From a virus: a DNA stretch of 23,438 nt. Below are positions 69 to 23,438 of the stretch, one piece after another (position 1 is the stretch's first letter; every line of letters starts with the position of its first letter). The stretch covers positions 1 to 23,438 of IMG/VR virus record IMGVR_UViG_3300032240_000037. The stretch is one strand, 5' to 3'. The translations under genes were made by a program, and so were the position numbers. Under the pieces are notes generated by a model that saw nothing but the letters and a program-made list of their open reading frames with translations, did not search any database and had not been told where the DNA came from.

Positions 69-98
69 CCCCCGGCGTCCCCGCGTCGGGGGTTTTTT
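69..98 (+). terminator. Rho-independent terminator, plus-strand orientation
   Basis: A 9-bp GC-rich stem (69..77 with 84..92, one G-T wobble) encloses a 6-nt loop and is followed by six T residues at 93..98. On the minus strand the bases after the stem (CTGAGTTCATC) contain no T run, so the element is directional and terminates transcription arriving from the left. It overlaps the TAA stop codon (97..99) of the convergent minus-strand giant gene. It therefore marks a convergent junction with a plus-strand unit outside the window. Confidence 0.85.
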
Positions 99-3000: not shown

Positions 3001-6000
3001 GACAGGGTTCAGGCGCTTGATAGCCTCAAGGATGCTGGACGTAGTGGTGATGGCCAGCTTCTTAGGCAGAGCGTTCACGCTCACTGCCTCTAGCCTCGCT
3101 TCAGCATTCTCCTTAGCCCCTTCGATCCAGCCGTGGCTGGCATCGGTCAGACCTTCGAAGAACGTAGCCCCGCTGCTAAGCTGCGCCTTCTGGACACCAC
3201 GGTTGATCCTCTGCTCCGGTGTCTTGGGGCGCATGTACTTGTTAATAACGCTGACATCGCTATCGTCGAACAGGACGTAGTTATAGGTAGGATTCTCGAC
3301 GAACGGCCCGCGCGAGTTCCCATCGAGGTACTTGTTACCCCGGATACCTGCGTCAAGGAGGGCGAGAGAAGCGGCTTGGGGGGAGCGGCCATTGGTATAT
3401 TCGATAAGCTTATATACTTGCCCACCAGTTCTAGGTGTGGGTCCCTGTTGTTCAAGCGTAGTTATCCGCTTAGCCAAATTACGTATTTTCATGCGCTCTG
3501 TTGGGGAAAGCCCGCCCATTATTTCGGAAGTCAAACGTTGAAAACCGCCCCCATATCGACGTTCGTAATCATTATATTCTTTTTCAAGTTGCGTAATCTC
3601 CAAAGCACGGTCAATGTCCATGCCCATATTGCGCAGGGCGCTAAGAACTTTAGGTGATTGCTCAGTCAGCGGCTTGTCCCACAGCAGGAAGTCGTCTTCC
3701 TCTGGCTTGATGTCTACTTGGTAAAGCTTGCCGGTAGTCTTGCGCTGAACAACATGATTTTGGAGCGCTTCTAGCGCTTTAATTGTTTCAGAGTTTAGCT
3801 CCAGCAATTCTGCAAATTGGTTATATGTTTCACTAGGGGATATATAACCTCCGTCTGGTTCGTACTCGTAATTGCGCGTGTACTCCGCAGCGTTAACAGC
3901 TTCTTCCGCGAGGGCTAGCTCAGCTTCCAACTTACTATGGTACGTTTGTATAAGCGCCAGTGCTTGTTTGGCGTCGATATTTTCATTTTTAAAGATATCA
4001 ACTAGCTCGTGATACACACCATCATAATATTTATTTCGGGGGTTTACAGGTTGCGTAGTGTAGTACCACTTTTCTAGCGGAGTATCGCCAACCATGATAT
4101 TGGTCTGACTCAGCCGATCACGATACTGCTTCTCAGCAATCTCCTTGGTGTCGGTAAAGTACAGCCCCCACCCGAATATCTGCGCGCCTTCGCCGCTGCC
4201 GATCTTGGAGATATCAAACTTATCGAAGTTATGGGGAGACCCGTGCCATGCGGTCATATACCGCAGGCCCTTCACGACGGTGCTCTCCTGCTTACCACGC
4301 ACCACTTGGTCGTGAGCCATCGAGAGGATAGCAGCTACGTCACCATCAGTAAGCTCAACCTTGAAGCCCACACGGCGTGCAAAGTTACGGATGATGGTAG
4401 CAATCTTACGGAAGAACGAGACCTCAAGACGCCCATTCTCAGAGCGTTCGGCAAGGACTTCTTCAACTGCACGCGCCAGCGGGTTCTTGTCCCGCTTGTA
4501 GGCATCGGGGTTTTCCGCCACCCAAGCATCGACATCAGCCTTTAGCTTGGCGTTGTTGTTATACATGCCCACGAGGGCGGTATCGAGCGTATTGCGGAAG
4601 AGCTTCTCAAGGCCAATGTGCCCGAGAGCTTCATGGAAGAGCGCAGCGCGAATGTCCTGCACCGAGAGCGCATTATCGGCAATGATGTAGACCGTGCCAT
4701 CGGGAGCCACAAAGCCCAGTGCGTTCTGGGCACCGTCCTTCTCCATCGCACGGCGTAGGGCTGCCGGTAGGTCCGCAATAGAGTTTACGACCGAAATGTT
4801 CGGTCGCCCCTTCCACGCACCGCTAGCGGCGTTAACTGCCTTCTGCGCTTCTTCTACGGATACTACCTTAGGCGGGCCACCGGCTTCCTTCTCGCCGCGC
4901 ATGTACTTGGTGGGCTTGGCTTCGGCTAGGTCAATGGCAGCTTCGCGCTGTTCACGCTGTTCAGGAGCAACGTTTTCGCCCCCCATACGCCCAAGAGCTT
5001 CTTGCACCTTGGCGTTACCGACACGCTGCTTGGCACCAGCCCGTTCGTCTTCCCGAGCTTCGGTGAGGGTTTTCAACCGTGCACGGACAGGGTTACCCAC
5101 TATGTTGTTAGCAACACGGCGCAGGTCACCTGCGATGTTGGCGGCTTTAAGCTCGGCGGCTTCCTTCGCTGCATCGCTCTCTGCATTACGCAGGTCGTTC
5201 ATGGCAGCAAGGTAGGCTTTTTCGCCATCCCCAATAACCTTCTTGGCACCGCCCCGATTTGACGAGTCTACGATTTGCTGGAAGAGCGCAGCCTTCTCGC
5301 TATCCGTGATCTTGTTTGCTGCACGGGCAGCGTTGATCTCAGTAACGAGGTCTTCGTTAATCTGCGTGTACGGGGTGTTGGGGACTTCTCGCCCACCTTT
5401 AATAGCCTGCGCGGACAGCGGGCGCGATGTATACGGAACAAGGTTACCAGCGGCTTCCTCGAAGTCAGTAAGGTTGTCCTTGGCAACAAAAAGCTCACGC
5501 GAGCCATCTGCCTCTTCAGGACCGACTACCTGATAGGGGGTCGGTGAGCTTGGCACATACCGCACTTCGTAGGGCTTGTTGGCCTTGTTCGCAGCCCGGA
5601 TATCGTTCTGGACCTTGGCAATGCGCTGCTGCTCGATCTCCTTGTTGCGCTGCGCTAGCTCCGCAAGCTTCTTTGCCTGCTCCTGCTCCTGCGCAGCTAC
5701 CTGTGCCTCACGCTGCCGCTTTTCTTCCTCGGAAGCAAACCGCTGAGCGTTATACTCATCACGTTTGATAGCCTCACCCGGTGCTTGTTGCGTAGGCAGG
5801 TCAAACCCTAGCGATGCAGTCTGGGTATCCTTAGGCGTACGCCCACGCATGTAGCGGATGCCAGTAGATACACCCTCGGCAATGGTGTTAAGCTCGTTGA
5901 TAGCCTCCGGCTCACTCATGCCCCGGCTTTCCGCGTACCGGGCAATCGCTGCGTCGTCGTTGAGGATAAGAGCCGCGCGCTCAGGAGTCATGTCCGACGC

Positions 6001-7575
6001 GGGCGCCGGAGTTCCAGTAGCCGTGGGGGCAGGTGCAGGAGGTGTAGTGCGCCCGCTAACTACTTGCTGCTGACCGTTGATATCGTAGGTGGTTTTGAAC
6101 GTACCCGGTGTTTCTCCCGCCTGACCCATCTCGTCGGCATAGGCTTCGGGCGGCGCAAACGGCGGTAGGTCTTCCGGCATACCGGGTTCTTCGGTAGCGG
6201 CAGTAGTATACGCCTGCGGCGCACGGGCCTTAGCAATGCCAGCCTTCGCGTACTTTACCGCTTCGTCGTACCCCACGCCGTACATAGTGACGTAGCGCTT
6301 AGCGATAATGTCGATAGCTTCTTGGTTCTCAGGGTCCTTGACGGCGTCCTGAGTGGCCTTGGCAAAGTCGTAGTCGTCCTTGCGCTCTTGCGCCTTCCGC
6401 TGAAGCACTTCGTGCAACGGCTCATGCTCTTCACCCTCGGCAGGGGGAGCGCGCATCTCTTCGATGTTTTTGATGCCGACTGTCTGGATATTACCGCCAG
6501 CATCACGGACGAGAACGGCACCCTTCTTATCGGGCACAGTGAGAATATCGAGTGCCTCAGGAACCTGCTCACCAGTCTGGCTATTCTTCAGGACTTCCAC
6601 AGAGTGCAGTGCAGGCGCAAGCTGGGCAGCCTTAGTGCGCGCGGCATTGATCTTCGCAGAAGCAAAGCCGACTGGGGTACCCATAAGAGCACCAACCAGA
6701 CCAGCTTCGACGGTCTGATACAGGTTTTGCTTGGTTGTAGGGTCAGCACCACCAGCAACCTGCTCGATCAGGTTCTGGGCCATTTCGGTGAGACCCTCTT
6801 CCCTACCCGTCTTTATCGCCTCCTTGACGATATGCCGCATACCATGCTCAAGGGCTTCCTTAGCGGTCTCCCTGCCAATCTTGGAGATAGCGCCACCGGT
6901 ACCAGTAAGCACATCAAGGGCAGTACTTGCAGCCGTACCGATTATGGCGCGGCCCACATCGTCGATGCCTTCCTGCTTCTGCTGCTGGCGGATACCACTG
7001 TATGTCTGCAAGCCGCCCAGTGTACCCATAATGGCCATACCGGCTGTCGGGTTCTTAGTAATGGCAGTAGCTGCCAGAGCAGCCAGAGTAGTCGGAGCGC
7101 TCTCGGCTGCCGTCACAGCAACCGAACTAAGACCGCCAAAGAACCCCTGAGAATGTTCAAAATCGGGGGTAGTACGCTCGGGGACGAGGTTAGATACTGC
7201 CTTACCCGCACTCTGGATAGCGCCAGTGGCTGGTGCAACGCCCTCTGCCCAGCCCTTGCTGAAGCGTTCCTTAGTAGCCTGCGGAGTGATCGCGGATACA
7301 ATCGCCGTGGCGGGGTTAAGGCCGCTCAGAGCATCCAGTATCTTCGGTGCTTCAGATACAGCTTCTGAACCAAGCGAGCTAACGAGGTTACCCGTACCGC
7401 GCACGAGGCCGCTACCAATATCTTCCAGAGTACTGAAGAAGCCAGCTTCTTTAGGTTTAGCCGACTCAGGATGCTTCAAGTAAACTGCATAAGCTAGGTT
7501 TGCTTGCGAGGCATTAGGTGGTCCGTCTACTTTATACGTGACACCATTAGGGGCAGTTACGCTATAGGTAGGCAT
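97..7575 (-). CDS. Giant polyvalent protein: metallopeptidase-like, ADP-ribosyltransferase-like and PLxRFG modules
   Basis: This 2492-aa protein is the last gene of the unit and covers about a third of the window. Its start has an SD (ATAGGG) six bases upstream. An N-terminal tag is followed by an Ala/Gly-rich helical region (about 60-320), a Pro/Ala linker (about 500-540) and a charged coiled coil (about 609-660). A zincin-like module has HEALGH at 981-986 and a downstream EEVLAE. An ADP-ribosyltransferase (ART)-like module (about 1107-1447) has HGSPH at 1111 and GWGLYF at 1135-1140. A long helical C-terminal region contains PFRRFG at 1720-1725, matching the PLxRFG signature of giant phage proteins, and a hydrophobic stretch near 2190-2220. 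Such polyvalent proteins are thought to enter the host with phage DNA and act as effectors. Delivery and activity here are inferred. The third ART residue is not identified, and HExxxH differs from classical HExxH. Confidence 0.88.
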   Translation of the reverse strand: MPTYSVTAPNGVTYKVDGPPNASQANLAYAVYLKHPESAKPKEAGFFSTLEDIGSGLVRGTGNLVSSLGSEAVSEAPKILDALSGLNPATAIVSAITPQATKERFSKGWAEGVAPATGAIQSAGKAVSNLVPERTTPDFEHSQGFFGGLSSVAVTAAESAPTTLAALAATAITKNPTAGMAIMGTLGGLQTYSGIRQQQKQEGIDDVGRAIIGTAASTALDVLTGTGGAISKIGRETAKEALEHGMRHIVKEAIKTGREEGLTEMAQNLIEQVAGGADPTTKQNLYQTVEAGLVGALMGTPVGFASAKINAARTKAAQLAPALHSVEVLKNSQTGEQVPEALDILTVPDKKGAVLVRDAGGNIQTVGIKNIEEMRAPPAEGEEHEPLHEVLQRKAQERKDDYDFAKATQDAVKDPENQEAIDIIAKRYVTMYGVGYDEAVKYAKAGIAKARAPQAYTTAATEEPGMPEDLPPFAPPEAYADEMGQAGETPGTFKTTYDINGQQQVVSGRTTPPAPAPTATGTPAPASDMTPERAALILNDDAAIARYAESRGMSEPEAINELNTIAEGVSTGIRYMRGRTPKDTQTASLGFDLPTQQAPGEAIKRDEYNAQRFASEEEKRQREAQVAAQEQEQAKKLAELAQRNKEIEQQRIAKVQNDIRAANKANKPYEVRYVPSSPTPYQVVGPEEADGSRELFVAKDNLTDFEEAAGNLVPYTSRPLSAQAIKGGREVPNTPYTQINEDLVTEINAARAANKITDSEKAALFQQIVDSSNRGGAKKVIGDGEKAYLAAMNDLRNAESDAAKEAAELKAANIAGDLRRVANNIVGNPVRARLKTLTEAREDERAGAKQRVGNAKVQEALGRMGGENVAPEQREQREAAIDLAEAKPTKYMRGEKEAGGPPKVVSVEEAQKAVNAASGAWKGRPNISVVNSIADLPAALRRAMEKDGAQNALGFVAPDGTVYIIADNALSVQDIRAALFHEALGHIGLEKLFRNTLDTALVGMYNNNAKLKADVDAWVAENPDAYKRDKNPLARAVEEVLAERSENGRLEVSFFRKIATIIRNFARRVGFKVELTDGDVAAILSMAHDQVVRGKQESTVVKGLRYMTAWHGSPHNFDKFDISKIGSGEGAQIFGWGLYFTDTKEIAEKQYRDRLSQTNIMVGDTPLEKWYYTTQPVNPRNKYYDGVYHELVDIFKNENIDAKQALALIQTYHSKLEAELALAEEAVNAAEYTRNYEYEPDGGYISPSETYNQFAELLELNSETIKALEALQNHVVQRKTTGKLYQVDIKPEEDDFLLWDKPLTEQSPKVLSALRNMGMDIDRALEITQLEKEYNDYERRYGGGFQRLTSEIMGGLSPTERMKIRNLAKRITTLEQQGPTPRTGGQVYKLIEYTNGRSPQAASLALLDAGIRGNKYLDGNSRGPFVENPTYNYVLFDDSDVSVINKYMRPKTPEQRINRGVQKAQLSSGATFFEGLTDASHGWIEGAKENAEARLEAVSVNALPKKLAITTTSSILEAIKRLNPVVGATISQLSNIEPRMRGMRQSMKKALTRRVKEFEKFVKKNTQDVISGTMTIARVNRVDVTSANSLAELLKNDKAANLYRGYLVDPSMSPAQKAAYKNHLKNREDDIRAAWAAWEKLGQQEGGQQLYKQVRQFYKDMYTALRAEQDDNIRAYGLDEKATDRLIAEAHKGENEEGLTDENDRFPGIPENLFPNEYFPFRRFGNYALLVGGKGTDIERERYHFESAFERRMWQNKRARQLGLKKGTPEYNATFKQLDSLKDMRDSMAGDSVMLGKMFKIIDESTLMRDFDSTQFATKEQANEAAKNQLKDQLYQTYLMTLPERSLRKQFLHAEKMTGNSADALRIFKNAVNQYSSQLPKLAYGREAQRLIETAYDTIDETKRDPAEMAKLRTMVDAYVGRYRETVNPTNGPGKIENLTSTFTFFSMLTSAYTAGAQLFSVPMQSMPRMNARYGYAETAKVMGHYMPVFDTVDMFTDVDPVTGEKHLTQPSLGNAPSVQNNPLRRRFWDELNNKRDLFSQHIVSMRLRDRPTTVYGTKGVLNKAGSGYEQLVHFSGALMSSADQLSREMVGMAFAELHYNKLRKEGVSHEQAFEKAVDEAVKNTDDTLGNYTELDKMTALRGDALRRFVGFLRNYAVQRTKYYFRQMDAMTRGSPYQTRMEAFHELMGTVLLGAMSGGVKTVFGYSAACFLINTLMKSLMSDEDKERWRREHPKEAFDSDYWFRNVWIPYHFGTDSMITKIAKHGALAEMTGADLGPRISQNDLWIRDVRQGDDWVDTATNVFLDNLSPKLSEASQLKDALKEFGKGNMSRVFSKAMPAAVRGWFTANRLATEGEVQESTGRTVMAPEEFTTLDLINQRLGATPLKLAEAREENRKILGWKHSMEDERNNLIKETRMMLSAPHTEQDITAAIAKIIAYNNKVPTVPGTNYGDPTYIIERKDIAQSIKTAEKKAQKSIRGVEMSPAERSYLQ

Positions 7576-7593: not shown

Positions 7594-9522
7594 TTAGTGT
7601 ACTACGTACTCGTTAGGGTTAAATCCGTCCGGAGATAGCGCAGGGCGAGGTGCGCCAGTACGTTTGGTTGGATCCCAGACAGGATCAATCCCCGGAGTCC
7701 TAATACTGTATTGTTGCCATTCTGGCATCGCTATGTGATATGCTGTGTTACGAAGCGCATCCTTGTCAATCATACTATCGATTTTATTTTCAGGTATACC
7801 CTTAGCCCTAAGTTTTCCTACCTGCTCATTATAGCCTTGCTTATAGTAAGTGTTAATCAGACCCTCAAGGCCCTTGTCCATCTTGGTATCAGAGCCAATA
7901 CGAGCCGCTGTTATACTAGCAGCATTTCGAGCGGTAGATATACGCTCCTCCGCCCTCATCTTTTCGCGTTCGACTTCCGCGTTAAGGGTATGCCCGCGAA
8001 TTTCTTCCGCAAGCGTATCTGCCGCATGCTTGTTAGATACCTGCGACTGCACGACCGAGATAGCTCGGTTAGCCTTCTCATTGGCTTCCTTGTTGCTGTA
8101 GTTCTCCAGCTGTGCGCCTTCGACAATAGCGCTATGTGCTTCCTTCTTCAGGTCGTTGAGATCAGCCTTTAGACCGGCAGCGGCAGGCATACCGGCTTCG
8201 CCTACTGCACCGAGGAAGTTAGGGTTCTTCGAAGCCATAAGTGCAAGGCCAAAGTTCATCAGCGCTTGGTTAGCAGCCTGCTTGCGGTCCTTCTTAAGCT
8301 CCTCGGGGTCCAGCCTGTGCATTACATCCGTAGAAAGCATATCCGAGAATTTGTGCTGCTGCGGCGCAAGCGCACCGAGGTTGGCCTGTACCCGCTGCAG
8401 ATTTTCCGGACTATACGGGTCTGGTGTACCTGCAGCAAAACCCGGAACTTCGCCGCCCCCCGCCATACCCTGCGGCATAAGCATAGCAAGACCCTGCTGA
8501 CCGAGAGCAGCCCACCCAGCCATACGGCGGTTCCGTTTCTCGGCTTCGCGTTCCTTGGTGTTTGTCGCTAGCATATCGTACATAGCTGCCGTATCTTCAT
8601 TAGGAAGCTCAGAGGCAGCGAGCCCTACGGGAGTAGGAGAGGCGGGGGCGGCAGGTGTAGGGTCAGAAACCATACGCGCAGGGGCTCTACGCCGACCACC
8701 CGGTTCTACGTGGACGTGGTCGCCTTCGTTAATCACATCATAACCCACACCATAGAGGTCAGCGAGCCTCTTATACAGCGACCCCATACTCATGTCTTTG
8801 GGAGGCACGAAATCACGGGCGTTGTTAGTCAGGTGGTAGCTATGGGGGTTACCACCCACTTGGGCGTTATGTGCGGCACTGCGCTCCCGGCTAGTGACCC
8901 GGATACCGGGGATAGCCTCTGTTGCCTGCTCCTCAAACCAAGGACCGAGAGGACCCCCCTGCTTGAATGCTACAATGCCACCGGGCGCATATTGCTGGAC
9001 ATCGCTGTCACCGACAGACGAATTGAACATATCATCAGGTACGGGGAGCGCGGCAAGGCCGCCATCAGCAAACCCAGCCCCCTCAGGAAGCCCGGCTTCC
9101 GGGAACGGGAGGAGCGAGCGCATACGCCCACCCCCGGCGAACCCGACTTCGCCACCATCAGCCATACTCGGACCCATAGGCTGCATATTCTGCGGCGACT
9201 GAGGGGGCATCGGAGGCTGCGGAGCGGGGGCAGGAGCAGCACTGGGCACGGGAGGCAAACCACCAGCACCGGTACCACCGGGAGCCTGAGCAGGAGGCGT
9301 CTGCGGGTTGAACACTTGGCTAGCCACAGTGCCCTGAGGAGCCTGCGACTGCATCGCACCTGCCGCCATGCGGTCAATAAACATACCGGCAAGGGTGCCG
9401 ACAGTAGGGTCGACGATGCCCAGCTGCATAGCCTGAGCGATCTTCTGCTTGTTACCGCCGTAATCCTTGGCAATCTGTTCAGGAGACTGCGCACCGAAGG
9501 GCTTAGAGTGAGCACTTTGCAT
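7594..9522 (-). CDS. Virion-associated protein with M15-type peptidase domain
   Basis: This is a 642-aa protein. The ORF also offers an ATG at 9528 overlapping the upstream stop (ATGA), but the AAGGG SD at 9532..9536 lies only 3 nt from it and 9 nt from the ATG at 9522, so I prefer 9522. A central domain carries the M15/VanY-type zinc pattern: SYHLTNNARD, giving H230 and D237, then DHVHVEP with H271. These folds cleave peptidoglycan peptide cross-links. Around it are long Gly/Pro/Ala-rich stretches (GFAGGG, GFADGG, MAGGGEVP) and a helical, charged C-terminal half. Its place between two putative internal proteins and the giant protein suggests a virion-borne wall hydrolase used during DNA entry, distinct from the lysis endolysin at 16480. 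The C-terminal coding part is relatively AT-rich (about 38-40% GC in two 60-nt lines near 7741-7860). Confidence 0.75.
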   Translation of the reverse strand: MQSAHSKPFGAQSPEQIAKDYGGNKQKIAQAMQLGIVDPTVGTLAGMFIDRMAAGAMQSQAPQGTVASQVFNPQTPPAQAPGGTGAGGLPPVPSAAPAPAPQPPMPPQSPQNMQPMGPSMADGGEVGFAGGGRMRSLLPFPEAGLPEGAGFADGGLAALPVPDDMFNSSVGDSDVQQYAPGGIVAFKQGGPLGPWFEEQATEAIPGIRVTSRERSAAHNAQVGGNPHSYHLTNNARDFVPPKDMSMGSLYKRLADLYGVGYDVINEGDHVHVEPGGRRRAPARMVSDPTPAAPASPTPVGLAASELPNEDTAAMYDMLATNTKEREAEKRNRRMAGWAALGQQGLAMLMPQGMAGGGEVPGFAAGTPDPYSPENLQRVQANLGALAPQQHKFSDMLSTDVMHRLDPEELKKDRKQAANQALMNFGLALMASKNPNFLGAVGEAGMPAAAGLKADLNDLKKEAHSAIVEGAQLENYSNKEANEKANRAISVVQSQVSNKHAADTLAEEIRGHTLNAEVEREKMRAEERISTARNAASITAARIGSDTKMDKGLEGLINTYYKQGYNEQVGKLRAKGIPENKIDSMIDKDALRNTAYHIAMPEWQQYSIRTPGIDPVWDPTKRTGAPRPALSPDGFNPNEYVVH

Positions 9523-9536
9523 TATCATGGACCCTT
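9523..9536 (-). promoter_or_regulatory. Ribosome binding site deciding the start of the M15 virion protein
   Basis: The minus-strand AAGGG at 9532..9536 lies inside the end of the upstream gene. It is 3 nt from the first ATG (9528) and 9 nt from the second (9522). The spacing favours the second. Initiation is probably coupled to termination of the upstream gene, whose stop is at 9525..9527. Confidence 0.45.
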
Positions 9537-10498: not shown

Positions 10499-11965
10499 TT
10501 ACGCAATAGCTCGCAGGCCAGTATCCTGACCACGTTTAGCAGACTTTCTAGCTTTCTGCGCCTTATCCATCAGAGCATAAAGCTTCTGAGTACCTTTCTT
10601 GTGGTCACCGCCACCTACCCGCGCAACTGCTTCGGGGGAGAAGTGAACCTCATCACGCGCCACACGCGCTTGCTGCTTGCCATTGATACGGGCAGGAACA
10701 GAATCACTTACTCCATCACCGGAGCCATGGATCGGCGTACCGCCAAGCTTGGCAAGAACCTGCTGACCGGCACTGCTACTCCCATTACCAAACTCTGCAG
10801 TCTCACGGGCAGGCATAACAAACGAGCCGCTACGCATGTGAAGCGTACCACCGGCAGCGAGGCCCGGAAGGCCTTTGATCCCACCCTGCGGCTGACCATA
10901 GCCAGACGACTGCATATACGGGCTAGGCGTAGTTTGCATCGGCATCTGGGGCTGGGGTTGAGACTGTTGATCAGACTGAGGCTGAGACTGCATTGAGTAT
11001 GAGCCGTCCATCATCTGCTGTGCAGGCTGCGGGATAGTCTGCGTATTGACCGCCGTTTGATTGTTTCCAATCTGCCCGCCACCAGCATAGCCGCGCATAT
11101 TTTTCGGCGTAGTCTTCTGGCCCGGAATCCAAGGATTACCTGCCCTATCTGTGTAGGTCATAGGGCCAAAATAATCCCGCTCCGAAGAGTCGAAGTTATA
11201 TGGGTCGAAGTTAGCCATCTGCCCCGGCGTGATAGCATTGGCAGTGAGCGCCTGACTATGTGCTTGGTAGGGGCCGATATAACCATACTCATCAGGCGCC
11301 TGCTTCGCATCCTTCTGAGTAGGCGTGAATGCATTAGATACGCCCTGAATAGCTCCAGTAGCGGCCAGCATAGGTGCAGCCCTACCGATAATACCACCGG
11401 GGAGGCCAGCCTGTGCAGCTTGGCCGAAGTTAGACATTGCTGCGCCGATACCAGTCTGTGCTATACTCTTACCGCCTTCCGCTGCGATATTAGCTGCATT
11501 TGCAGGCCCATTTACGAAATTACTGATGTCACCCATACCACCAACAGCAGGATGCATAACCGCAGCAGTTGAACCGGGGAGGCCGATACCGGCACCAACG
11601 TGCCCAAGGGCACCACCAAGGCCAGCAGCACCAGCCAAAGAAGCGCCGCCGAATGCGCCGAGGCCAGCCATAAGACCCTGCTTGATGTCGCCAGTAATAG
11701 CCGTACCACCGATAGCGCCGAGTGCACCCATCCAAACTGGGGGGATACCGAACGCCATACCCAGACCACCTAGTAGAGTAGGCAGTAGCTTGCCGAGCCA
11801 GCCAGCTTCAGGGAGGCCAGTATCTGGGTTGATGGTGAGTGAACCACCATGCGCCATGGCAAGATTCTGCAGTCCGCTGACCTCCGCAGGGGTCATATGG
11901 ATCAGCATCGTATCGTCACCGCGTCCCCGCGACCGTACGTGTTCTGCCATGTGCGAGTAGTGCAT
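10499..11965 (-). CDS. Putative internal/ejection virion protein with hydrophobic Gly/Ala region
   Basis: This 488-aa protein has an AAGG SD seven bases before the ATG at 11965, which supports this start over the ATG at 11950. A short polar N-terminus is followed by a very Gly/Ala/Leu-rich hydrophobic region (about residues 55-200) that could insert in membranes. A Gln/Pro/Met-rich low-complexity segment follows (about 310-360). The conserved-looking C-terminus (about 365-488) contains GDGVSDSVPARING and LYALMDKAQKAR, a pattern I recognise from uncultured phage virion proteins of unknown function. Short YAGGGQI and LAAGGTL motifs near residues 292 and 367 recur in other proteins of this window. 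Its position in the four-gene block ending with the giant protein suggests ejection or pore formation; that role is inferred. Confidence 0.7.
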   Translation of the reverse strand: MHYSHMAEHVRSRGRGDDTMLIHMTPAEVSGLQNLAMAHGGSLTINPDTGLPEAGWLGKLLPTLLGGLGMAFGIPPVWMGALGAIGGTAITGDIKQGLMAGLGAFGGASLAGAAGLGGALGHVGAGIGLPGSTAAVMHPAVGGMGDISNFVNGPANAANIAAEGGKSIAQTGIGAAMSNFGQAAQAGLPGGIIGRAAPMLAATGAIQGVSNAFTPTQKDAKQAPDEYGYIGPYQAHSQALTANAITPGQMANFDPYNFDSSERDYFGPMTYTDRAGNPWIPGQKTTPKNMRGYAGGGQIGNNQTAVNTQTIPQPAQQMMDGSYSMQSQPQSDQQSQPQPQMPMQTTPSPYMQSSGYGQPQGGIKGLPGLAAGGTLHMRSGSFVMPARETAEFGNGSSSAGQQVLAKLGGTPIHGSGDGVSDSVPARINGKQQARVARDEVHFSPEAVARVGGGDHKKGTQKLYALMDKAQKARKSAKRGQDTGLRAIA

Positions 11966-17369: not shown

Positions 17370-18029
17370 TTACCGGACTGGATACCGTACCTGCGTAGTG
17401 CGGTACATATCCTGCCGGTTCTTACCTTCACCCAGTTCCTTGAGCATGGCAAGCGCTTCATCGTAACGCTTCTGGTAGCCCGCGATAACGTCTGCCTCAC
17501 CCTTCATGAAGGTATAGGCTTCAAGCAGAGAGCCGTAAAGTAGGACGCTATCGAAGTTGTCACCCAGCCACGAAGTACCTGCATCCACGATAGATTGCGG
17601 GTAGTAGAAGTAATTCAGCTTCAGGCTGTACGTGGAATCAGGAGTAGGCCCCAGCAGGAACGTACTCTGATCGAGGTAGGCATAGTGTGTCGGCGTACCG
17701 GTACTAGTAGGCGACGGGAATGCTTCCCGAATAAAGTTTACGTCCTTATTCAGGAGGTAGTTGTAGTTCCCGCTTGCATCCACAAGCGCGAGAGAGAAGC
17801 TGGCCAGCCAGTCAGCAGGGGCACTCACAGTAGTCACGCCCGTTGCGCATGTCAGCGTGCCGTCCTTGCGGAAACTCAGCAGCTGAACCGAATTGAAGAT
17901 ACGCTGCTCTGCCTCCTTGATGAAGATATTGATCTGCGCCGTAGACGTAAGACCGCCAGCCCCCGCTGTGTCCGGGAAGTCGTTTTCGGTATACGCCTTG
18001 ATGGCGGAGACGAGAGCAGTGTAGTTCAT
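17370..18029 (-). CDS. Putative head-to-tail adaptor protein
   Basis: This 219-aa protein overlaps the stop of the upstream gene as TAATG. The N-terminus (YTALVSAIKAYTENDFP) leads into two helices with IFIKEAEQRIFNSVQL. A beta section follows (KDGTLTCATGVTTVSAPADWLASFSL, then HYAYLDQSTFLLGPTPDSTYSLKLNYFYYPQSI), and a helical C-terminus has LLYGSLLEAYTFMKGEADVI and a YQKRYDEALAMLKE helix. This layout is typical of the adaptor proteins that dock under the portal of podovirus-like phages (SU10 adaptor type). I base the assignment on motif pattern and context, and could not confirm it by profile search. It probably links the portal to the tail hub. Confidence 0.7.
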   Translation of the reverse strand: MNYTALVSAIKAYTENDFPDTAGAGGLTSTAQINIFIKEAEQRIFNSVQLLSFRKDGTLTCATGVTTVSAPADWLASFSLALVDASGNYNYLLNKDVNFIREAFPSPTSTGTPTHYAYLDQSTFLLGPTPDSTYSLKLNYFYYPQSIVDAGTSWLGDNFDSVLLYGSLLEAYTFMKGEADVIAGYQKRYDEALAMLKELGEGKNRQDMYRTTQVRYPVR

Positions 18030-18232
18030 TAGCCCATCTTCGTGCTGTTGCTATTCCCACGCGTCGTATTCTTAGTACCACGAGTACGCATGGTCTGGGT
18101 ATTAGCTACCTTGTTCGGGTAGCCGTTATTACCGAGATTGACATCGGTACCACCAGACATGGTATGTGGCTTAGCGTAGGTGCTAGCAGGACCGACCTCA
18201 TTGCCGCCCTTCTTCATGCTAAACTTAGCCAT
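18029..18232 (-). CDS. Small basic protein of unknown function
   Basis: This 67-aa protein is rich in Lys, Asn, Thr and Gly (begins MAKFSMKKGGNEVG, ends with an Asn/Ser/Thr tract). It overlaps its upstream neighbour by 8 nt and its downstream neighbour as TAATG, so it is locked into the operon. No fold or catalytic motif is visible and the chain looks disordered. It belongs to a set of short basic proteins scattered through this unit; DNA binding or a virion-internal role is a guess. Confidence 0.65.
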   Translation of the reverse strand: MAKFSMKKGGNEVGPASTYAKPHTMSGGTDVNLGNNGYPNKVANTQTMRTRGTKNTTRGNSNSTKMG

Positions 18233-18353
18233 TCTTGTTCACCTTCACTTCGTTCGTCGGTACCGTGCGTACCGGCTTCTTCTGGTTAGCAATCTTAGCC
18301 AGATTGCGACCCAGCTTCTTCATCTGCTCGTTAGTCTTACCGCCCTTAGCCAT
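18225..18353 (-). CDS. Very small basic protein (42 aa)
   Basis: Reading the minus strand from 18353 gives ATG, 41 further sense codons and TAA at 18225..18227. The product begins MAKGGKTNEQMKKLGRN and is strongly basic, with one predicted amphipathic helix. It fills what would otherwise be a gap of about 130 nt between the zinc-ribbon gene and the 67-aa gene and overlaps the latter by 8 nt. Its MAKGG opening is shared with other small proteins here (for example MAKGGVN in the 83-aa protein). Coding is likely from fit and composition; function is unknown. Confidence 0.65.
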   Translation of the reverse strand: MAKGGKTNEQMKKLGRNLAKIANQKKPVRTVPTNEVKVNKNG

Positions 18354-18362
18354 ACCTTACTC

Positions 18363-18797
18363 CTACGATTGCACAGTCACTGTGCCTATCTCACCATTAC
18401 CTATTAGCGTATTTGGGAGGTCAGGGAAAGCCAGTGGATTATTAAGCCCCACAGGAGCCCACCCCCACTGGATGACACGACTACCATCAGAAGGCTGACC
18501 GAAGGCTAGCGTATTAGTAGCTGGCACTTCGCCATGGGTCTTTATCTTAAGCCCAGTCAGACCCGCCTGCCAATAACTGACATCAGGGCGCGGATTACGT
18601 AGTGCCTGCGGGTCATCGACCGGATACATACCGATCTGAAGCTGCGGCTGGTCTGGCTCCCAGCAAGACGGGCATACGAGGATATTCGTACTCTTGGTCT
18701 TAATCGTCAGCTTCTTAAGCTGCTTAAGCTTGTACCTAAAGCCGCAGCGGTCGCACTCCGCAATGGATTTTTTACCAGAGGCGAATGGATTAGGCAT
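18363..18797 (-). CDS. Zinc-ribbon phage protein
   Basis: This 144-aa protein has a GGGAGG SD five bases before ATG. The N-terminal third holds two CxxC pairs, C15/C18 (ECDRCGF) and C42/C45 (VCPSCW), separated by a basic stretch (KLKQLKKLTIKTK). This is a clear treble-clef or zinc-ribbon candidate. The C-terminal two thirds are Pro/Asn/Gly-rich beta-type sequence ending in GEIGTVTV, with QWGWAPVGLNNPLAFP. I recognise the combination from structural clusters of uncultured aquatic phages but know of no assigned function. Placement between a connector candidate and an adaptor suggests a virion or assembly role rather than transcription control. The zinc binding is well supported; the role is open. 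Confidence 0.72.
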   Translation of the reverse strand: MPNPFASGKKSIAECDRCGFRYKLKQLKKLTIKTKSTNILVCPSCWEPDQPQLQIGMYPVDDPQALRNPRPDVSYWQAGLTGLKIKTHGEVPATNTLAFGQPSDGSRVIQWGWAPVGLNNPLAFPDLPNTLIGNGEIGTVTVQS

Positions 18798-18809
18798 AGC
18801 ACCCTCCCA

Positions 18810-19526
18810 CTAAATAAACATCTGGCGCGGAGCGATCCGCAGGGGGGCCTTCTCACGATCTTCTTCGGAAGCCTGTTGCCAAGCTTCTTCGTACATAGCC
18901 TTCAGCATGGGGGTACGCTCCATGGCACCGGGAAGCTTAAGCGACAGATAGTACGCCAGCCCAGCTACCATGCAGGGGAGGAATCGGAATGGGATATCTT
19001 GCGTGTTGATACCGTTCCCAGCATCCTGAATGCGGCGAAGCCGGTAGTAGAAGAAGGTGTAGTAGTTGCTCTGGTCCGGGGCGGGCCAGACATTGATCTG
19101 CGGTGGCTTCACACCAGTAACCGGATAGGTCGCACCTGACTGGCGGTTGATCCACACCTGAATGGGACGACCCTGAGCGTTCTTGTTCGGGATCGTGATG
19201 TAGGTGTCGGCGCTGATGCGGTTGATGTTGATATCAAGCTGGTTCGAAGTCGTACCCGCATTTGTACGGATAACGTGTTCCATCAGGTCAATCGTATCTA
19301 CCGGCAGGTCATAGGTGATCTGCCCCTGTACCATGGAGATCGAGCCCTGCTCGATAGTCCAGAGATTGATGCCCCGGTTAGCCCACTCGATAGTCAGAAG
19401 GTTAAGGCTACGGCGGGCAGTCTTCAGGTCATAGCCTGTACGAAGCTCAGCACCACACCGCTCAAAAGCCTCTTCTACAAGGTTATTGAGATCGAGATTG
19501 AACGATGTGGTACCAGTCGTGGTCAT
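18810..19526 (-). CDS. Putative head-tail connector / tail accessory protein
   Basis: This 238-aa protein overlaps the upstream stop as ATGA. The N-terminal segment LDLNNLVEEAFERCGAEL, followed by TGYDLKTARRSLNLLTIEWANRGINLWT, is a strongly conserved signature I recognise from uncultured podovirus-like phages. A beta region follows (ITYDLPVDTIDLMEHVI, then IQVWINRQSGATYP, INVWPAPD and YTFFYYRLRRIQD), then a helical end with PCMVAGLAYYLSLKLPG and an acidic/basic helix. A helix-beta-helix layout among adaptor and hub genes resembles tail accessory factors such as P22 gp4, but the match is by architecture only. I infer a ring component between portal and tail. Confidence 0.65.
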   Translation of the reverse strand: MTTTGTTSFNLDLNNLVEEAFERCGAELRTGYDLKTARRSLNLLTIEWANRGINLWTIEQGSISMVQGQITYDLPVDTIDLMEHVIRTNAGTTSNQLDININRISADTYITIPNKNAQGRPIQVWINRQSGATYPVTGVKPPQINVWPAPDQSNYYTFFYYRLRRIQDAGNGINTQDIPFRFLPCMVAGLAYYLSLKLPGAMERTPMLKAMYEEAWQQASEEDREKAPLRIAPRQMFI

Positions 19527-19921
19527 CTAAAGCTCGCTGTCTTCTTGGCTATGGTCTTAGGCTGCTTGACGAACTGCTTGCCCGCCTTCGTACCTTCACG
19601 CTTAGCCTTGGTTGTAGCAGCATATTCAGAGGATGTCAGGGCCTGCCGTGCTTTCTTCGGAAGGTAGCGTTCGCCAGTAGCTTTGGCCCCCTGCGTAGAC
19701 GGCTTACCCGACTTGGTACCCCAGTCCTCCTTAGTCCATTTAGACAGGGATTTCTGGGCTTCAGTCTTCGGGCCGCTATATCCACCACCAGACTTCTTGT
19801 ATCGCTGAGTAGCAAGCTGAGCCTTACGCGCAGACCATTGGCCTGCGTTGCCGCCCTTAGTTCCGGCTTTCACACTGGCGACAATGCGCTTCCACTTGCC
19901 CTCATCAGTGTGCCCAGCCAT
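19523..19921 (-). CDS. Lys-rich DUF5872-like protein
   Basis: This 132-aa protein is strongly basic and rich in Lys, Gly, Ser and Thr. The segment KWTKEDWGTKSGKPS followed by GERYLPKKARQAL closely resembles the DUF5872 signature found in phage and large-virus proteins. The N-terminus has WKRIVASVKAGTKGGNAGQW, another recurrent element in small phage proteins. There is no membrane segment or catalytic motif. It lies among the head-tail connector and low-complexity genes. Its charge suggests nucleic-acid contact, for example as a packaged DNA-condensing protein, but that is inference. Confidence 0.7.
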   Translation of the reverse strand: MAGHTDEGKWKRIVASVKAGTKGGNAGQWSARKAQLATQRYKKSGGGYSGPKTEAQKSLSKWTKEDWGTKSGKPSTQGAKATGERYLPKKARQALTSSEYAATTKAKREGTKAGKQFVKQPKTIAKKTASFR

Positions 19922-19932
19922 CTTACCTACCC

Positions 19933-20595
19933 TTACCTGAAGTTGCTGTATTGCCCATGCATAAACTCAGGGCCACCGCCGCCACGCTGTATATTGCGCA
20001 TAACCTGCATGCGCGGGCTTTCTGGCATAACCTGCTGAACCATAGGGGCCTGAGGCATATGCGGGGGAATCTGCGGCATATACTGCATATATCCGGGTAC
20101 CTGCGGCGGGTGCATACCCTGCATCTGCTGCATTTGTTGAGCAAACTGCGGGTTAGCCTGCTGAAAGAACTGCGGGTTTAGTTGCTGAGCAAACTGATTG
20201 GGCTGCTGTGTTGGCTGCATACTCTGCATCAATGCCGACTGGGTTGGCTGTTGCTGGTTAGGCATACCGCCAAGATGAGTAACTGCCTGCGGGTTAGGCG
20301 TACCACGCATATACTCTGGTACACCCAGCGCGGCAGCCATAGCATCATCCTGCGGATTGTGCATATATCCGGGTACCTGCGGGGGCACTGACTGAGGCAT
20401 ATTAAGATTTGGGGGTGCTGCGGACTGCCCAAAACCCCCTGCCTGCGGATGCATACCCTGCATACTCTGCATCAATGCCGACTGGGTTGGCTGCTGCTGG
20501 TTAGGCATACCACCAAGCGGAAGCGCACCTAGACCCTGAGACTGGGGTTGGGCTTGCATTAGCGACTGGCTACCAGTGCCGAGAGTAGGGAACAT
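19933..20595 (-). CDS. Met/Gln/Pro-rich repeat protein
   Basis: This 220-aa protein starts at ATG 20595 with TAAGG five bases upstream; a GTG at 20601 is an alternative two codons longer. The chain is almost entirely low complexity and made of two imperfect copies of one unit. GGMPNQQQPTQSALMQSMQ occurs twice, PQVPGYM twice and QGMHP twice, and the C-terminal half is dominated by QQ/PQF/QM elements. There is no globular domain, signal peptide or catalytic motif. It ends in a short basic segment with RGGGGPEFMHGQY. An intrinsically disordered assembly or scaffold protein is possible, but the function is unknown. Confidence 0.65.
   Translation of the reverse strand: MFPTLGTGSQSLMQAQPQSQGLGALPLGGMPNQQQPTQSALMQSMQGMHPQAGGFGQSAAPPNLNMPQSVPPQVPGYMHNPQDDAMAAALGVPEYMRGTPNPQAVTHLGGMPNQQQPTQSALMQSMQPTQQPNQFAQQLNPQFFQQANPQFAQQMQQMQGMHPPQVPGYMQYMPQIPPHMPQAPMVQQVMPESPRMQVMRNIQRGGGGPEFMHGQYSNFR
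20084..20382. repeat. Dispersed short direct repeats, 23 bp (20084..20106 and 20360..20382)
   Basis: Two identical 23-bp copies encode the PQVPGYM element of the repeat protein on the minus strand. Their spacing (276 bp) differs from that of the longer repeat in the same gene (243 bp). The underlying duplication has therefore been remodelled by insertion or deletion of about 33 bp, an in-frame change. Confidence 0.75.
20218..20517. repeat. 57-bp direct repeat, copies 20218..20274 and 20461..20517
   Basis: The copies differ at two positions that I can see (C/T within the Gln codons, and A/G in CACCAAG versus CGCCAAG). They lie 243 bp apart within one ORF and preserve frame. This is an intragenic duplication, not a CRISPR array or terminal repeat. 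Confidence 0.8.
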
Positions 20596-20602
20596 TGCCA
20601 CC

Positions 20603-20854
20603 TTACTTACCCTTCTTCATACCCTTGAGCAGTTCAGCAAACCGTGCGCGCTGACCAAGCTTACCGGGGGCCTTAGCAGCCTTAGCGAGCTTTTTGGCCG
20701 GGATCGGCTCACCCTTCTTGGCACCAAGCTCAGCGCGCAGGGCACCGGGCTTCTTGATCGCCTTCTGGATAAAGTTTACACCACCCTTGGCCATACCCAC
20801 CTTCGTGGGCATTTTGGACTTTTTCATATCACCCATACCTCGGCTCGGTCGCAT
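20603..20854 (-). CDS. Small highly basic conserved phage protein
   Basis: This 83-aa protein has the strongest SD in the window (AAGGAGA, six bases before ATG), which overlaps the upstream stop. It is very rich in Lys and Ala. The C-terminal 50 residues (KKPGALRAELGAKKGEPIP, then KKLAKAAKAPGKLGQRARFAELLKGM) form a pattern I recognise as widespread in uncultured phages and some prophages, where it has no assigned function. It probably folds as a small helical bundle. Strong initiation suggests an abundant product, consistent with a DNA-binding or virion-internal protein; that is inferred. No membrane segment is seen. Confidence 0.75.
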   Translation of the reverse strand: MRPSRGMGDMKKSKMPTKVGMAKGGVNFIQKAIKKPGALRAELGAKKGEPIPAKKLAKAAKAPGKLGQRARFAELLKGMKKGK

Positions 20855-20860
20855 AGTTAA

Positions 20861-20867
20861 TCTCCTT
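20861..20867 (-). promoter_or_regulatory. Strong Shine-Dalgarno for the 83-aa basic protein
   Basis: Minus-strand AAGGAGA is separated by six bases from ATG 20854 and overlaps the TAA of the preceding gene. It is the closest match to a consensus SD in the window and fixes the start. Confidence 0.8.
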
Positions 20868-21099
20868 ATGCCCAGACACGCGAAGGTGTGACTGGTACGA
20901 TAATGTACTTGTCGAAGGGCGTGGTGTCGATCTCTTCCAGCACGCGCAGATTGGCATGGTAGCCTCTGATACCCTCGATCTTGCCAATGCGGTCCAGCAG
21001 CACGTTAGGTGAGACAGGATTGCCATCATCATCCAGCAGTGCGCCAAGCGCCCTGTCCAGATACGTCTGGCTTGAGGCCTTAAGGTAGTAGTCGGTCAT
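20866..21099 (-). CDS. Small phage protein, tail/fibre associated
   Basis: This 77-aa protein overlaps the stop of the lectin-like gene as ATGA. It begins MTDYYLKA and ends PVTPSRVWA, with GYHANLRVLEE in the middle. The combination YHxNLR plus a terminal P-x-RVWA recurs in small proteins beside tail-fibre genes of phages and prophages, whose function is not known to me. It is acidic in the first half and has no membrane segment. The tight coupling to the 455-aa fibre/spike gene suggests it is an accessory of that protein. Confidence 0.7.
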   Translation of the reverse strand: MTDYYLKASSQTYLDRALGALLDDDGNPVSPNVLLDRIGKIEGIRGYHANLRVLEEIDTTPFDKYIIVPVTPSRVWA

Positions 21100-22463
21100 G
21101 TCGTCAGGGCCTGTAGCTGTGCATCTGGCAGGCGAATGTTATAGTAACTGACAGAGCGGATATGTGTGTTGGTCACATTGACCGCTGCGCCGCTTGGGTC
21201 AGCGCCGATATTAAACTGCGTCGGGGACACAGGAAGGGCGCCTGATGTATCCGTCACGACAGCCCCACCATCGCGCGAGGCCGAGAAGTCGTTGACTGCA
21301 TACGCGCTGGCAACAGTATTTACCACGCCGGCAGTCCCGTAGGCGCCGAGCGACAAGATGGCCTGCGCCACTGAGCCGGAGTAATACACGGCGCGCATAA
21401 GGGAGCCCCCGGCGTCATTGTCGAAGTGGAAAGAGTTCTGCCCCACAACCCCATTTGAGGCGGCAATGTATGTAGCGTACACATTGGGCGAAGTTTCATA
21501 GCTGGCCACAAAAGTCCCCTGCGCAGCGTTAAACCACGAGGAGAAGTTTGCGCCTGTCATGACAGCTACGTCTGCCGCGCGTGTAACCTGTGAGCCCGTG
21601 GTGGGGATGTAGCTGGTGGCGAATGCACCTGCTTCGAGTTGCGCGCCCCAGACGTAGATACCGTTGGCTCCGGTGCCAGTATAGGTCGGGTAGCCGCTAG
21701 TTCCTCCGACAGCTCCGGTGGCAGAAAGCCCCACACCAACCCGGTTAAAGGCAATAGTCCCCGCCACTACGGTGATCGCGCAGCGATACCACCCGTTGCC
21801 CGCTGGGGCGACCGAGGTTGAAACAATCGATATCCCAGCGCCAAGCGCAGCAGTGTTTGCGACTGCTCCAGTTGTCAGGTCAAATGAAGCCGCGGCGTAA
21901 TTATTGGCCGTTGAGTTATATAGGTTAAGAACCCCATAATTGATTCCCGCGTTTTTCAAATAAACCGTTTGAGTGAAGGTTGCGCCAGTAGTGGCGACTA
22001 CACTGCCTTGCTGAATGTAGTGTCTTCCGGAAGTAGCATCATCCAAAAGGGTATCCGCATTACTTGTGCCATCCGGCGCAGTAGCGCTGTTAGCCACAAT
22101 GGAGGACGCGACTTTTGTCCATATAACGTTGTCGAATTGGGCGGAATAAATAACTGAGTTCGTGCGCTGCTCCTCGATCAGCAGCCCCTCAGACGCGAGG
22201 GTGACAGGGTCGTATTCGAACCGGGGCACATTGATCGCCGCCGTTTGGATAAAACCGTCGATGCCGGAGAATGTCGCGGTGGATCCGCGTGTAAACGTAA
22301 TGCGCGGGTCAAGAGGAGCGCCGGCCAAGAAGTCAAGCGAGAGGGTCTGGACCCATCCGCCTGTGATGAGGCCGGGGACACCGCTCCAAAGACCAGAGAC
22401 ATTATGGTACAGTCCTGTACCCAAGACAAGACCTGAGCCGTCACTAGATAGCCCGTTAGACAT
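21096..22463 (-). CDS. Lectin-like fibre/spike protein (CBM-like plus LamG-like)
   Basis: This 455-aa protein starts in a TAATG overlap. After a Gly-rich N-terminus, residues about 45-105 hold DPRITFTRGSTATF and LLIEEQRTNSVIYS, hallmarks of phage carbohydrate-binding surface proteins. A beta-sandwich module follows (about 110-290) with YLKNAG, GNGWYRCAIT, IYVWGAQLEAGAFATSYIPT. The C-terminal region (about 295-455) ends in IRSVSYYNIRLPDAQLQAL, typical of LamG/concanavalin A-like domains. It probably binds host or environmental glycans as a head fibre or tail spike. No hydrolase residues are evident. The coding DNA is GC-richer than its neighbours (39/60 and 41/60 in two lines, against 22/60 in the gene just upstream), suggesting acquisition as a module. 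Confidence 0.78.
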   Translation of the reverse strand: MSNGLSSDGSGLVLGTGLYHNVSGLWSGVPGLITGGWVQTLSLDFLAGAPLDPRITFTRGSTATFSGIDGFIQTAAINVPRFEYDPVTLASEGLLIEEQRTNSVIYSAQFDNVIWTKVASSIVANSATAPDGTSNADTLLDDATSGRHYIQQGSVVATTGATFTQTVYLKNAGINYGVLNLYNSTANNYAAASFDLTTGAVANTAALGAGISIVSTSVAPAGNGWYRCAITVVAGTIAFNRVGVGLSATGAVGGTSGYPTYTGTGANGIYVWGAQLEAGAFATSYIPTTGSQVTRAADVAVMTGANFSSWFNAAQGTFVASYETSPNVYATYIAASNGVVGQNSFHFDNDAGGSLMRAVYYSGSVAQAILSLGAYGTAGVVNTVASAYAVNDFSASRDGGAVVTDTSGALPVSPTQFNIGADPSGAAVNVTNTHIRSVSYYNIRLPDAQLQALTT

Positions 22464-22792
22464 TACGGATGTAGACCCGCCTGAATAATAGTAAGTACTG
22501 CAGAGCCAGTACCCGCAGTCTGCTGGAGACGTACCGCAGCAGGGATATAAGCATAGTTACCCTGACGGTTAACCGTCTGCGCTACCAAGTTAGCATCGGG
22601 GTGGCTAAACCAAGTCGGAGTAATTGCCGTATTAAGTACATTATCCAGTGTCTGTTGAACAGTATACGTTACTGTACCTGTTACGACTACCTGAATAGAG
22701 ACTTCAGGGCGACCATAATAATCTAGTATGAGAGCAGTCGAGTTTTTCGTACCGCCAGATGCATCTGACGTTGTTGTGGTCATAGGACGCAT
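22463..22792 (-). CDS. Small beta-rich structural protein
   Basis: This 109-aa protein starts at ATG 22792, with AAGGGG about 10 nt upstream inside the previous gene; an ATG at 22783 is an alternative. The chain is Thr/Val-rich and predicted beta, with ALILDYYGRPEVSIQVVVTGTVTYTVQQTLD, TPTWFSHPD and a C-terminal AVRLQQTAGTGSAVLTIIQAG. This looks like one beta sandwich, as in small decoration or tail-accessory proteins. The region is distinctly AT-rich (22/60 GC in line 22621). I do not recognise a named family. It is coupled to the lectin-like gene by TAATG. Confidence 0.65.
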   Translation of the reverse strand: MRPMTTTTSDASGGTKNSTALILDYYGRPEVSIQVVVTGTVTYTVQQTLDNVLNTAITPTWFSHPDANLVAQTVNRQGNYAYIPAAVRLQQTAGTGSAVLTIIQAGLHP

Positions 22793-22793
22793 A

Positions 22794-23258
22794 TTACTTC
22801 ATCCCCTTGTGCACGCCTGCGCAGCGGGTCTTCCCACGCTGAGCGATGCCATCGATAGAACCACCCTTAGCACACTTCATGACTTTACCGCCCTTGCGCA
22901 TGTTCATGCTACCCATCTCGTTAGAAGTTGGCATCTGCTTGGTAACACCGCCGCCAGCAGCATACTTATTGAAGGGGTATGCCTTTTCCATGGCCTTCTT
23001 CTCAGCTTCTTCACGCGGGGTGCGCTTATTCGCAGCAGCCTTGGCATCACGCGCAGCAGTGTCCCGCTTGGCCTTATCGAGATCGATACGGATAGGATAC
23101 TGCGGGGCAGTACCTCCATCAGCGAACTTTTTTGCCTTCTTATCAGCCATCTCGAAATCCTTACCTACCGATTGCTTAACGCCAACCTTCTTGGCGAATG
23201 ACGGGCTATGGGCGATAGCTCGCATGAACTTTGCCTGCTTGGCGCTAGTCGAAGGCAT
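22794..23258 (-). CDS. Basic phage protein with conserved N-terminal module
   Basis: This 154-aa protein starts at the ATG in a TGATG overlap with the holin-like gene stop (an in-frame ATG 18 nt upstream lies inside that gene). The N-terminus (STSAKQAKFMRAIAHSPSFAKKVG, then KQSVGKDF) is a module I recognise from many uncultured phages, function unknown. The middle is a Lys/Ala/Glu-rich helix. The C-terminus contains FADGGTA, YAAGGGV, MRKGGKV and CAKGGSI elements, a Cys near RCAGVHKGMK, and is disordered-looking. It is probably a virion or DNA-associated protein. The shared xGG motifs link it to the internal virion proteins at the other end of the operon. Confidence 0.7.
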   Translation of the reverse strand: MPSTSAKQAKFMRAIAHSPSFAKKVGVKQSVGKDFEMADKKAKKFADGGTAPQYPIRIDLDKAKRDTAARDAKAAANKRTPREEAEKKAMEKAYPFNKYAAGGGVTKQMPTSNEMGSMNMRKGGKVMKCAKGGSIDGIAQRGKTRCAGVHKGMK

Positions 23259-23431
23259 CACTTCTTTCCCATCCAACGCTGTACAGTATCCGTCTCATAG
23301 ATGCGGATAGCTGTCCAGATAATCGTGAATATTGCCGCGACTGCAGGGAGCATATTAACTATAGTCCCCAATACCGTGACAAAGGACAGTGCATCTATAA
23401 CATGTTTAGTGGCTTCGTCAGGGTCCGTCAT
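23258..23431 (-). CDS. Holin-like small membrane protein (57 aa)
   Basis: Reading the minus strand from ATG 23431 gives 57 codons to TGA at 23258..23260. The product has a short acidic N-terminus (MTDPDEATKHVIDAL), one long hydrophobic segment (about residues 17-43: VTVLGTIVNMLPAVAAIF...) and a charged C-terminal tail (RIYETDTVQRWMGKK). Size and topology match small phage holins, and near-identical patterns are often annotated as holin in uncultured phages. The stop overlaps the next start (TGATG). A TGA at 23433..23435 in another frame could be the stop of a further upstream gene cut by the window end. A second small membrane protein lies beside the endolysin. Confidence 0.68.
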   Translation of the reverse strand: MTDPDEATKHVIDALSFVTVLGTIVNMLPAVAAIFTIIWTAIRIYETDTVQRWMGKK

Positions 23432-23438
23432 GTCAGCA

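Follow-up and report, generated by a model that had tools for sequence, protein, structure and literature searches.

Small basic proteins between capsid and adaptor genes

The window analysed here is the whole of IMG/VR record IMGVR_UViG_3300032240_000037, a 23,438-base virus fragment in which all genes of interest (and all window coordinates below) are on the minus strand. Five of these genes encode small basic proteins of 154 (22794..23258), 83 (20603..20854), 132 (19523..19921), 42 (18225..18353) and 67 (18029..18232) amino acids (aa). Computed isoelectric points (pI) are 10.2-11.3, Lys contents 10.4-22.9% and net charges +21, +20, +23, +9 and +8, respectively, the 67-aa protein being the mildest of the five in basic character. 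Lys-rich basic open reading frames (ORFs) carrying three recurrent motifs had been proposed at this locus from the sequence (hereafter the original prediction); all five ORFs lie where it had placed them, with the pI values just given, and the three motifs are present as it had written them. Its setting among head-tail genes also holds, as the neighbouring 238-aa (18810..19526) and 219-aa (17370..18029) proteins both match SU10_adaptor (PF24175, 35.9 and 91.1 bits against a cut-off of 27), and the former, whose gene adjoins and bounds the cassette, is in line with an SU10-type podovirus head-tail block.

The gene order from the right end is 57 aa, 154 aa (basic), 109 aa, 455 aa (tail-protein-like, phrog_5939), 77 aa, 83 aa (basic), 222 aa, 132 aa (basic), 238-aa SU10_adaptor, 144 aa, 42 aa and 67 aa (both basic), and 219-aa SU10_adaptor, followed downstream by an endolysin, fibre-like genes and a 2492-aa protein. 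The basic genes are thus not adjacent; the interspersed 109-, 455-, 77-, 222-, 144- and 238-aa proteins are near-neutral or acidic (net 0, -11, -3, 0, +4 and -1). The 83-aa gene has the best Shine-Dalgarno sequence, as originally claimed: TAAGGAG (20862..20868), 7 nucleotides before the ATG, ranks first among 24 genes that we chose for scoring, the window-edge gene having too little upstream sequence. In relatives, the order is TerL-portal-GroES-scaffold-like-two genes-capsid (Phage_capsid_4)-cassette-adaptor. The window record ends (at 23438) before the capsid end of the cassette, where relatives have the capsid gene.

A C-terminal peptide common to different proteins

The 154-aa protein ends in ..AKGGSIDGIAQRGKTRCAGVHKGMK (22797..22871), a recurring C-terminal peptide, hereafter the tag, with the core DG[CI]AxKGKT[KR]G and the fuller consensus AKGGS..DG[CI]AxKGKT[KR]G.. 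over about 16-25 residues. Among the 196 window ORFs of at least 35 aa, that of the 154-aa protein is the only one matching the tag pattern. A profile search with this tail recovered many other small proteins ending in close variants (for example RADGCATKGKTKGRFV), often two to five per contig. Related phages carry the tag on one to five different small proteins, and L003 has five nearby genes with different bodies and a common tag. Among 98 tags, Gly-13, Gly-8 and Thr-6 are invariant, Asp-14 is found in 96, and the residue at position -12 is mostly Cys (60 tags) or Ile (34 tags). This shared peptide, which the original prediction had missed, argues for a common address or assembly partner, and not for charge alone.

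The tag may alternatively be a DNA- or RNA-binding tail of AT-hook or H1 type, which would bring the proteins to nucleic acid and not to a head protein. The basic GKTKGR-like core with its Lys/Gly-rich approach would fit such a tail, as would the charge that the cassette proteins retain across relatives and the basic tails borne by bacterial DUF5872-like relatives of the 132-aa protein. However, near-constant Asp, invariant Gly and Thr and a Cys/Ile site are more exact than charge requires, and the distance from tag to stop is fixed in 98 of 166 tagged ORFs; we consider this explanation unlikely.

Related designs were found in other C-termini. Relatives of the 67-aa protein, present in 67 of 166 loci, have variable N-termini and a conserved C-terminus (..RTRGTKNTTRGNSNSTKMG in the window); some end in RTRGTGCATKG.. 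or KTRGTGAATKG.., near the tag core, and this end may be a third form of the tag. No isolate phage record matched the 67-aa tail. Three consecutive proteins of L044 (L044:1-1219) end in RG[VC]G[CA]A.RGYG[RK]AMKG (for example RGVGCAMRGYGRAMKG), which has the same design in other letters and is probably a sister tag. Elsewhere, three genes at L118:15315-17243 have the common C-terminus GAGG[QK]GGDGFV..WW, possibly a fibre or tail-tip element.

Position, bodies and selection

A single pattern identified 166 tagged ORFs in 84 of the 166 de-duplicated loci of our first sample. The tag lies in the last 50 residues in 164 of these ORFs (60.6 expected if positions were uniform), and its match starts exactly 13 residues from the end in 98. 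Where the respective gene is present, the tag is downstream of the capsid gene in 99 of 99 cases and upstream of the adaptor gene in 152 of 154. Similarly, 11 sequences from ten records, window included (about 441 kb and 3,836 six-frame ORFs of at least 35 aa; five sequences are parts of contigs), gave 24 tag matches, all 24 in the capsid-adaptor interval and none elsewhere; the limits of this interval were set from gene positions, its capsid side being the sequence end for the window and for G007. A replicate of 72 further tag-selected loci, with no overlap with the first sample and at least one match per locus by selection, agreed: all 157 strict matches are at most 50 residues from the stop, with the tag following the capsid gene in 86 of 86 cases and preceding the adaptor gene in 140 of 142. 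With a looser pattern, 186 of 206 matches are within 50 residues of the stop.

Within a locus, the proteins that share the tag have otherwise different sequences. Among 143 tagged proteins with a body of at least 30 aa, none of the 89 within-locus pairs shows body similarity. Single linkage yields 49 body families and unites 14 of these 89 pairs, the largest family (69 members) being chained through partly low-complexity sequence. As a control, 28,453 within-locus pairs were screened for at least 8 of 16 residues in common: C-termini gave 28 such pairs (18 with both members tagged), N-termini three and mid-protein segments one.

Shared C-termini could also be recombination scars: the conserved DNA would be a homology arm through which genes are swapped, and the encoded peptide would have little function. 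Tag pairs identical at the DNA level in L003, L106 and L137 are in line with this, as are the highly variable bodies. However, other pairs keep their residues with many codons changed: in L136, 15 of 16 residues are the same and 11 of those 15 codons differ; in L019, all 16 residues are the same and eight codons differ; the L070 pair behaves likewise. Retention of residues despite such codon changes requires selection on the peptide, which makes scars a very improbable sole explanation. Taken together with the DNA-identical pairs, it indicates that both DNA copying and selection on the peptide have been at work. At the level of sequence, these comparisons and those below establish a conserved place, conserved charge and modules, and a reused C-terminal peptide under selection.

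Modules and charge in relatives

Three modules recur with the tag. Module A (MPSTSAKQAKFMRAIAHSPSFAKKVGVKQSVGKDFEMADK.., 23124..23258) comprises residues 1-45 of the 154-aa protein and was found in 38 of the 166 de-duplicated loci; module B (GALRAELGAKKGE..LGQRARFAELLKG) belongs to the 83-aa protein (107 loci), and module C is the 132-aa protein. Relatives of the 42-aa protein (MAKGGKTNEQMKKLGRNLAKIANQKK..) are present in 59 loci, the one in L110 being fused behind a KQDK..VHKHE stretch. The wide recurrence claimed for the motifs is borne out in viral contigs, where the 132-aa protein has at least 595 relatives, the 154-aa protein 47 and the 83-aa protein 508.

In the first sample, 43 loci contain both capsid and adaptor matches. 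Apart from the annotated phage HTVC027P, they were retrieved through module A, B or C, which biases the module counts. In their intervals, DUF6321 (PF19846) is the most frequent element (41 loci), ahead of module B (38), the tag (37), module C (32) and module A (14). DUF6321 is thus a companion cassette gene of these loci, but there is none in the window's part of the cassette; it matches 530 phage records, mostly of cyanophages. One DUF6321 cassette protein (L208:17018-17272, minus strand) is up to 82% identical to cyanophage proteins. Co-occurrence of the modules had been set beforehand as a point on which the original prediction could fail, and it was observed: among the 31 capsid- and adaptor-containing loci of the tag-selected sample, module B and DUF6321 are each present in 31, module A in 23, module C in 21, and A, B and C together in 14. 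Basic charge is conserved as well: the median net charge lies between +19 and +27 in modules A, B and C and in DUF6321. The prediction is thus supported as regards the conservation of the proteins, their basic charge and their location in the structural gene block, within its capsid-adaptor interval.

Module A provides a link to annotated structural proteins. The N-terminus of the 154-aa protein belongs to phrog_16759 (E 2.4e-19, profile positions 1-45 of 58), and the same module opens the profiles of two larger families, phrog_22033 and phrog_25121, labelled 'virion structural protein' in PHROGs. Small proteins of jumbo phages, one of which is annotated 'structural protein', match the first 32 residues of the module at up to 84% identity. 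In two inspected jumbo phages the module is a small protein standing alone, whereas in the window it is joined to a variable middle and the tag.

The cassette might instead encode late proteins that are no part of the virion, with roles in host take-over, nucleoid disruption or lysis, and that sit within the structural operon. A small transmembrane-type protein among its genes speaks for this. That protein is the 57-aa product of the first cassette gene (23258..23431), which by eye has a single transmembrane segment and similar-looking genes in relatives. The HMO-2011 genes for the two halves of the 132-aa protein, moreover, lie near a lysozyme gene. Set against this are the fixed capsid-adaptor place of DUF6321 and of the tag in the 43 loci and the PHROG label on the two longer families, and we give this possibility little credence; host take-over, which the original prediction had offered as one option, gained no support.

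Another explanation, of hardly greater weight, is that the cassette products decorate the capsid or form a minor part of it, with the tag as a shared peptide binding the outer face of the capsid. Capsid-near genes of the interval include a 'cement protein' in phage DSL-LC04 and a 'minor capsid protein' in Planktothrix phage Pag-Yong1. Yet these decoration-like genes are near-neutral or acidic and untagged, whereas the tagged proteins are basic and of low complexity, and to our knowledge the known cement folds do not resemble such proteins.

The 132-aa protein

The 132-aa protein unites two halves (phrog_17747 and phrog_14910), each of which has a gene of its own in HMO-2011 (gp63 and gp59) and CRP-13 (gp66 and gp65). 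Structures were predicted for this protein and for the 83-aa protein. The view that the cassette proteins are mostly disordered suits the latter better (mean predicted local distance difference test score, pLDDT, 61) and fails for the former, for which AlphaFold2 gives six helices, a mean pLDDT of 88.8 and a predicted template modelling score of 0.59. When the 132-aa model was compared with folds in the PDB, none of the seven matches had E at or below 0.001 (best E 8.8), and in a VIA fold comparison Z did not exceed 3.2, over some 40 residues. PDB sequence searches with the 132- and 154-aa proteins returned nothing at E 1; profile searches gave only chance-level candidates (L32, E 0.2; glutamine synthetase, E 1.6), which were discarded, and NCBIfam gave no credible match.

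The match of the 132-aa protein to DUF5872 (PF19197) scores 16.0 bits, below the cut-off of 27.5, and we therefore call it DUF5872-like and do not file it as a member. Two bacterial relatives, L273 and L243, pass this cut-off (29.1 and 29.4 bits) and align to residues 5-132 and 2-132 at 55% and 56% identity. DUF5872 proteins of Sphingomonas, Methylobacterium, Roseomonas, Azospirillum and others are likewise similar over the full length, mostly at 51-59% identity. The phage protein is the core alone, whereas many bacterial relatives add a C-terminal Rho_N-like stretch or a long Lys/Ala-rich, histone-H1-like tail. RefSeq names for plasmid copies include 'DUF5872 domain-containing protein' and 'Rho termination factor N-terminal domain-containing protein', while other copies have unrelated names. 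From these gene fusions, it is plausible that the 132-aa family contacts nucleic acid. Many alphaproteobacteria and some Pseudomonas/Stutzerimonas encode DUF5872-like proteins (L225-L304), several of which have H1-like tails; no common partner was evident by eye in the neighbourhoods of the six bacterial loci listed.

A possible address for head cargo

The reading we lean towards, with somewhat less than even confidence, is that the basic proteins of the cassette are head-associated and probably co-packaged, and that a common peptide serves as their address or in their assembly. The cassette of this podovirus-like phage would be a block of variable payload genes, bounded by the major capsid gene on one side and by the head-tail adaptor gene on the other. 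Its small basic proteins would probably be made late and most likely be built into the head in contact with DNA. By binding a single conserved component of the head, the C-terminal peptide would bring any protein that bears it into the procapsid. There the basic, largely flexible bodies would lie alongside the DNA, and they may leave together with it on ejection. The 132-aa protein would fit in through its bacterial family, whose extensions are of a nucleic-acid-binding type. Virion presence, binding of the tag to one conserved head part, and bodies that contact or travel with DNA are thus what we infer.

The nearest known logic is that of the T4 capsid-targeting sequence, a short peptide common to different small internal proteins, by which a fused foreign protein was localised in the core (described in passages of PMC9958956). 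The likeness lies in a tag common to different small proteins of one phage, whose bodies are dissimilar here. However, the T4 sequence has about 10 residues and is N-terminal, whereas our tag is C-terminal in 164 of 166 ORFs and belongs to a different type of phage; the T4 type is further marked by head loading of a fused protein and by processing through the prohead protease. A looser parallel is offered by the head cargo of phiCrAss001 and the ejection proteins of P22 and T7, which are phage-coded, stored in the head and sent out with the DNA (passages of PMC10172136). Those proteins are large (crAss001 gp45, 90.8 kDa), whereas the cassette proteins are small and basic with a common C-terminus, and the same passages mention no shared tag.

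Several observations weigh against the cargo reading. In the window, one protein alone clearly carries the tag. Several within-genome copies are identical in DNA (L003, L106 and L137), so that some of the sharing is recent copying, and of 526 identical-residue sites, 209 have different codons, where independence would predict 289.8. With near-identical DNA pairs dropped, tags differ at 5.36 of 16 positions within genomes and at 5.47 between genomes; a genome-specific co-evolution of the tag with a partner, which had first seemed apparent (1 of 300 shuffles), was gone without those pairs. The scaffold-like, capsid and portal C-termini of inspected relatives lack the tag, so that no known binding element appears copied, and the idea that the tag copies a scaffold's coat-binding end was dropped on the scaffold-like C-termini of G001, G008 and G009. 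All Rho_N matches are under the Pfam cut-off (best 23.7 against 24.9 bits). Finally, no virion proteomics or binding data were found for any cassette member; for HMO-2011 virion proteomics, the open-licence literature yielded a paper on another phage.

A broader proposal, on which we are doubtful, is that a portable C-terminal address peptide loads a fast-changing basic payload into the head in a large group of mostly uncultured podovirus-like phages, that any small gene captured between capsid and adaptor becomes cargo by gaining the tag, and that sister tags (such as that of L044) do the same elsewhere. Were the tag an address, sequence alone would suffice to pick out head cargo among the unknown small proteins of very common aquatic phages. 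The variable gene block beside the capsid gene would then have a purpose, and phage particles could be loaded with proteins by means of a short C-terminal peptide. Otherwise, a strongly selected peptide common to unrelated genes still needs an explanation.

Isolates and further genes of the region

A search of isolates with the tag alone at E 3 found three phage records (Pag-Yong1, MinM2 and Pra-JY27). The match inspected of these three, in Pag-Yong1, is at a protein C-terminus in the same interval. This phage has the same gene order, one tagged protein (UMO75986.1, 308 aa as annotated) ending in GRDGCAKRGRTKGRFI, and a capsid protein 73% identical to that of G001. Two further isolates, Pelagibacter phage HTVC027P and phage DSL-LC04, combine a related capsid gene with small basic proteins. 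In the open-licence literature we found nothing on Pag-Yong1 or DUF6321 and no relevant description of a shared phage C-terminal motif or tag. As far as these searches show, the reused tag is undescribed so far, while parts of the cassette resemble known families.

The capsid gene of the window phage should lie just past the right end of the record, probably with more tagged genes. A relative of this phage carries a tagged protein ending in RADGCCSKGKTKGRFV (L083:148-609), which suggests further tagged genes beyond that end.

Other genes share the region. The Gln/Met/Pro-rich, neutral 222-aa protein (19933..20601) lies within the capsid-adaptor interval and matches no Pfam or PHROGs family. 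Between the two adaptor genes, a 144-aa protein (18363-18797) has two CxxC pairs, weak zinc-finger matches and relatives in 87 of 166 loci. Between capsid and adaptor, 34 of the 43 loci encode an acidic, glycosyltransferase-like protein of about 245 aa (L207:1411-2148, minus strand; PF13506, 29.8 bits against a cut-off of 21.7). The 2492-aa protein (97-7575) has an ART-PolyVal match of 23.6 bits, below the cut-off of 31.2, and Pag-Yong1 has a gene annotated 'large polyvalent protein'. Finally, the 644-aa (7594-9528) and 488-aa (10499-11965) proteins contain repeated GG motifs (FADGG, AGGGEV, AAGGT) that resemble the lead-in of the tag.

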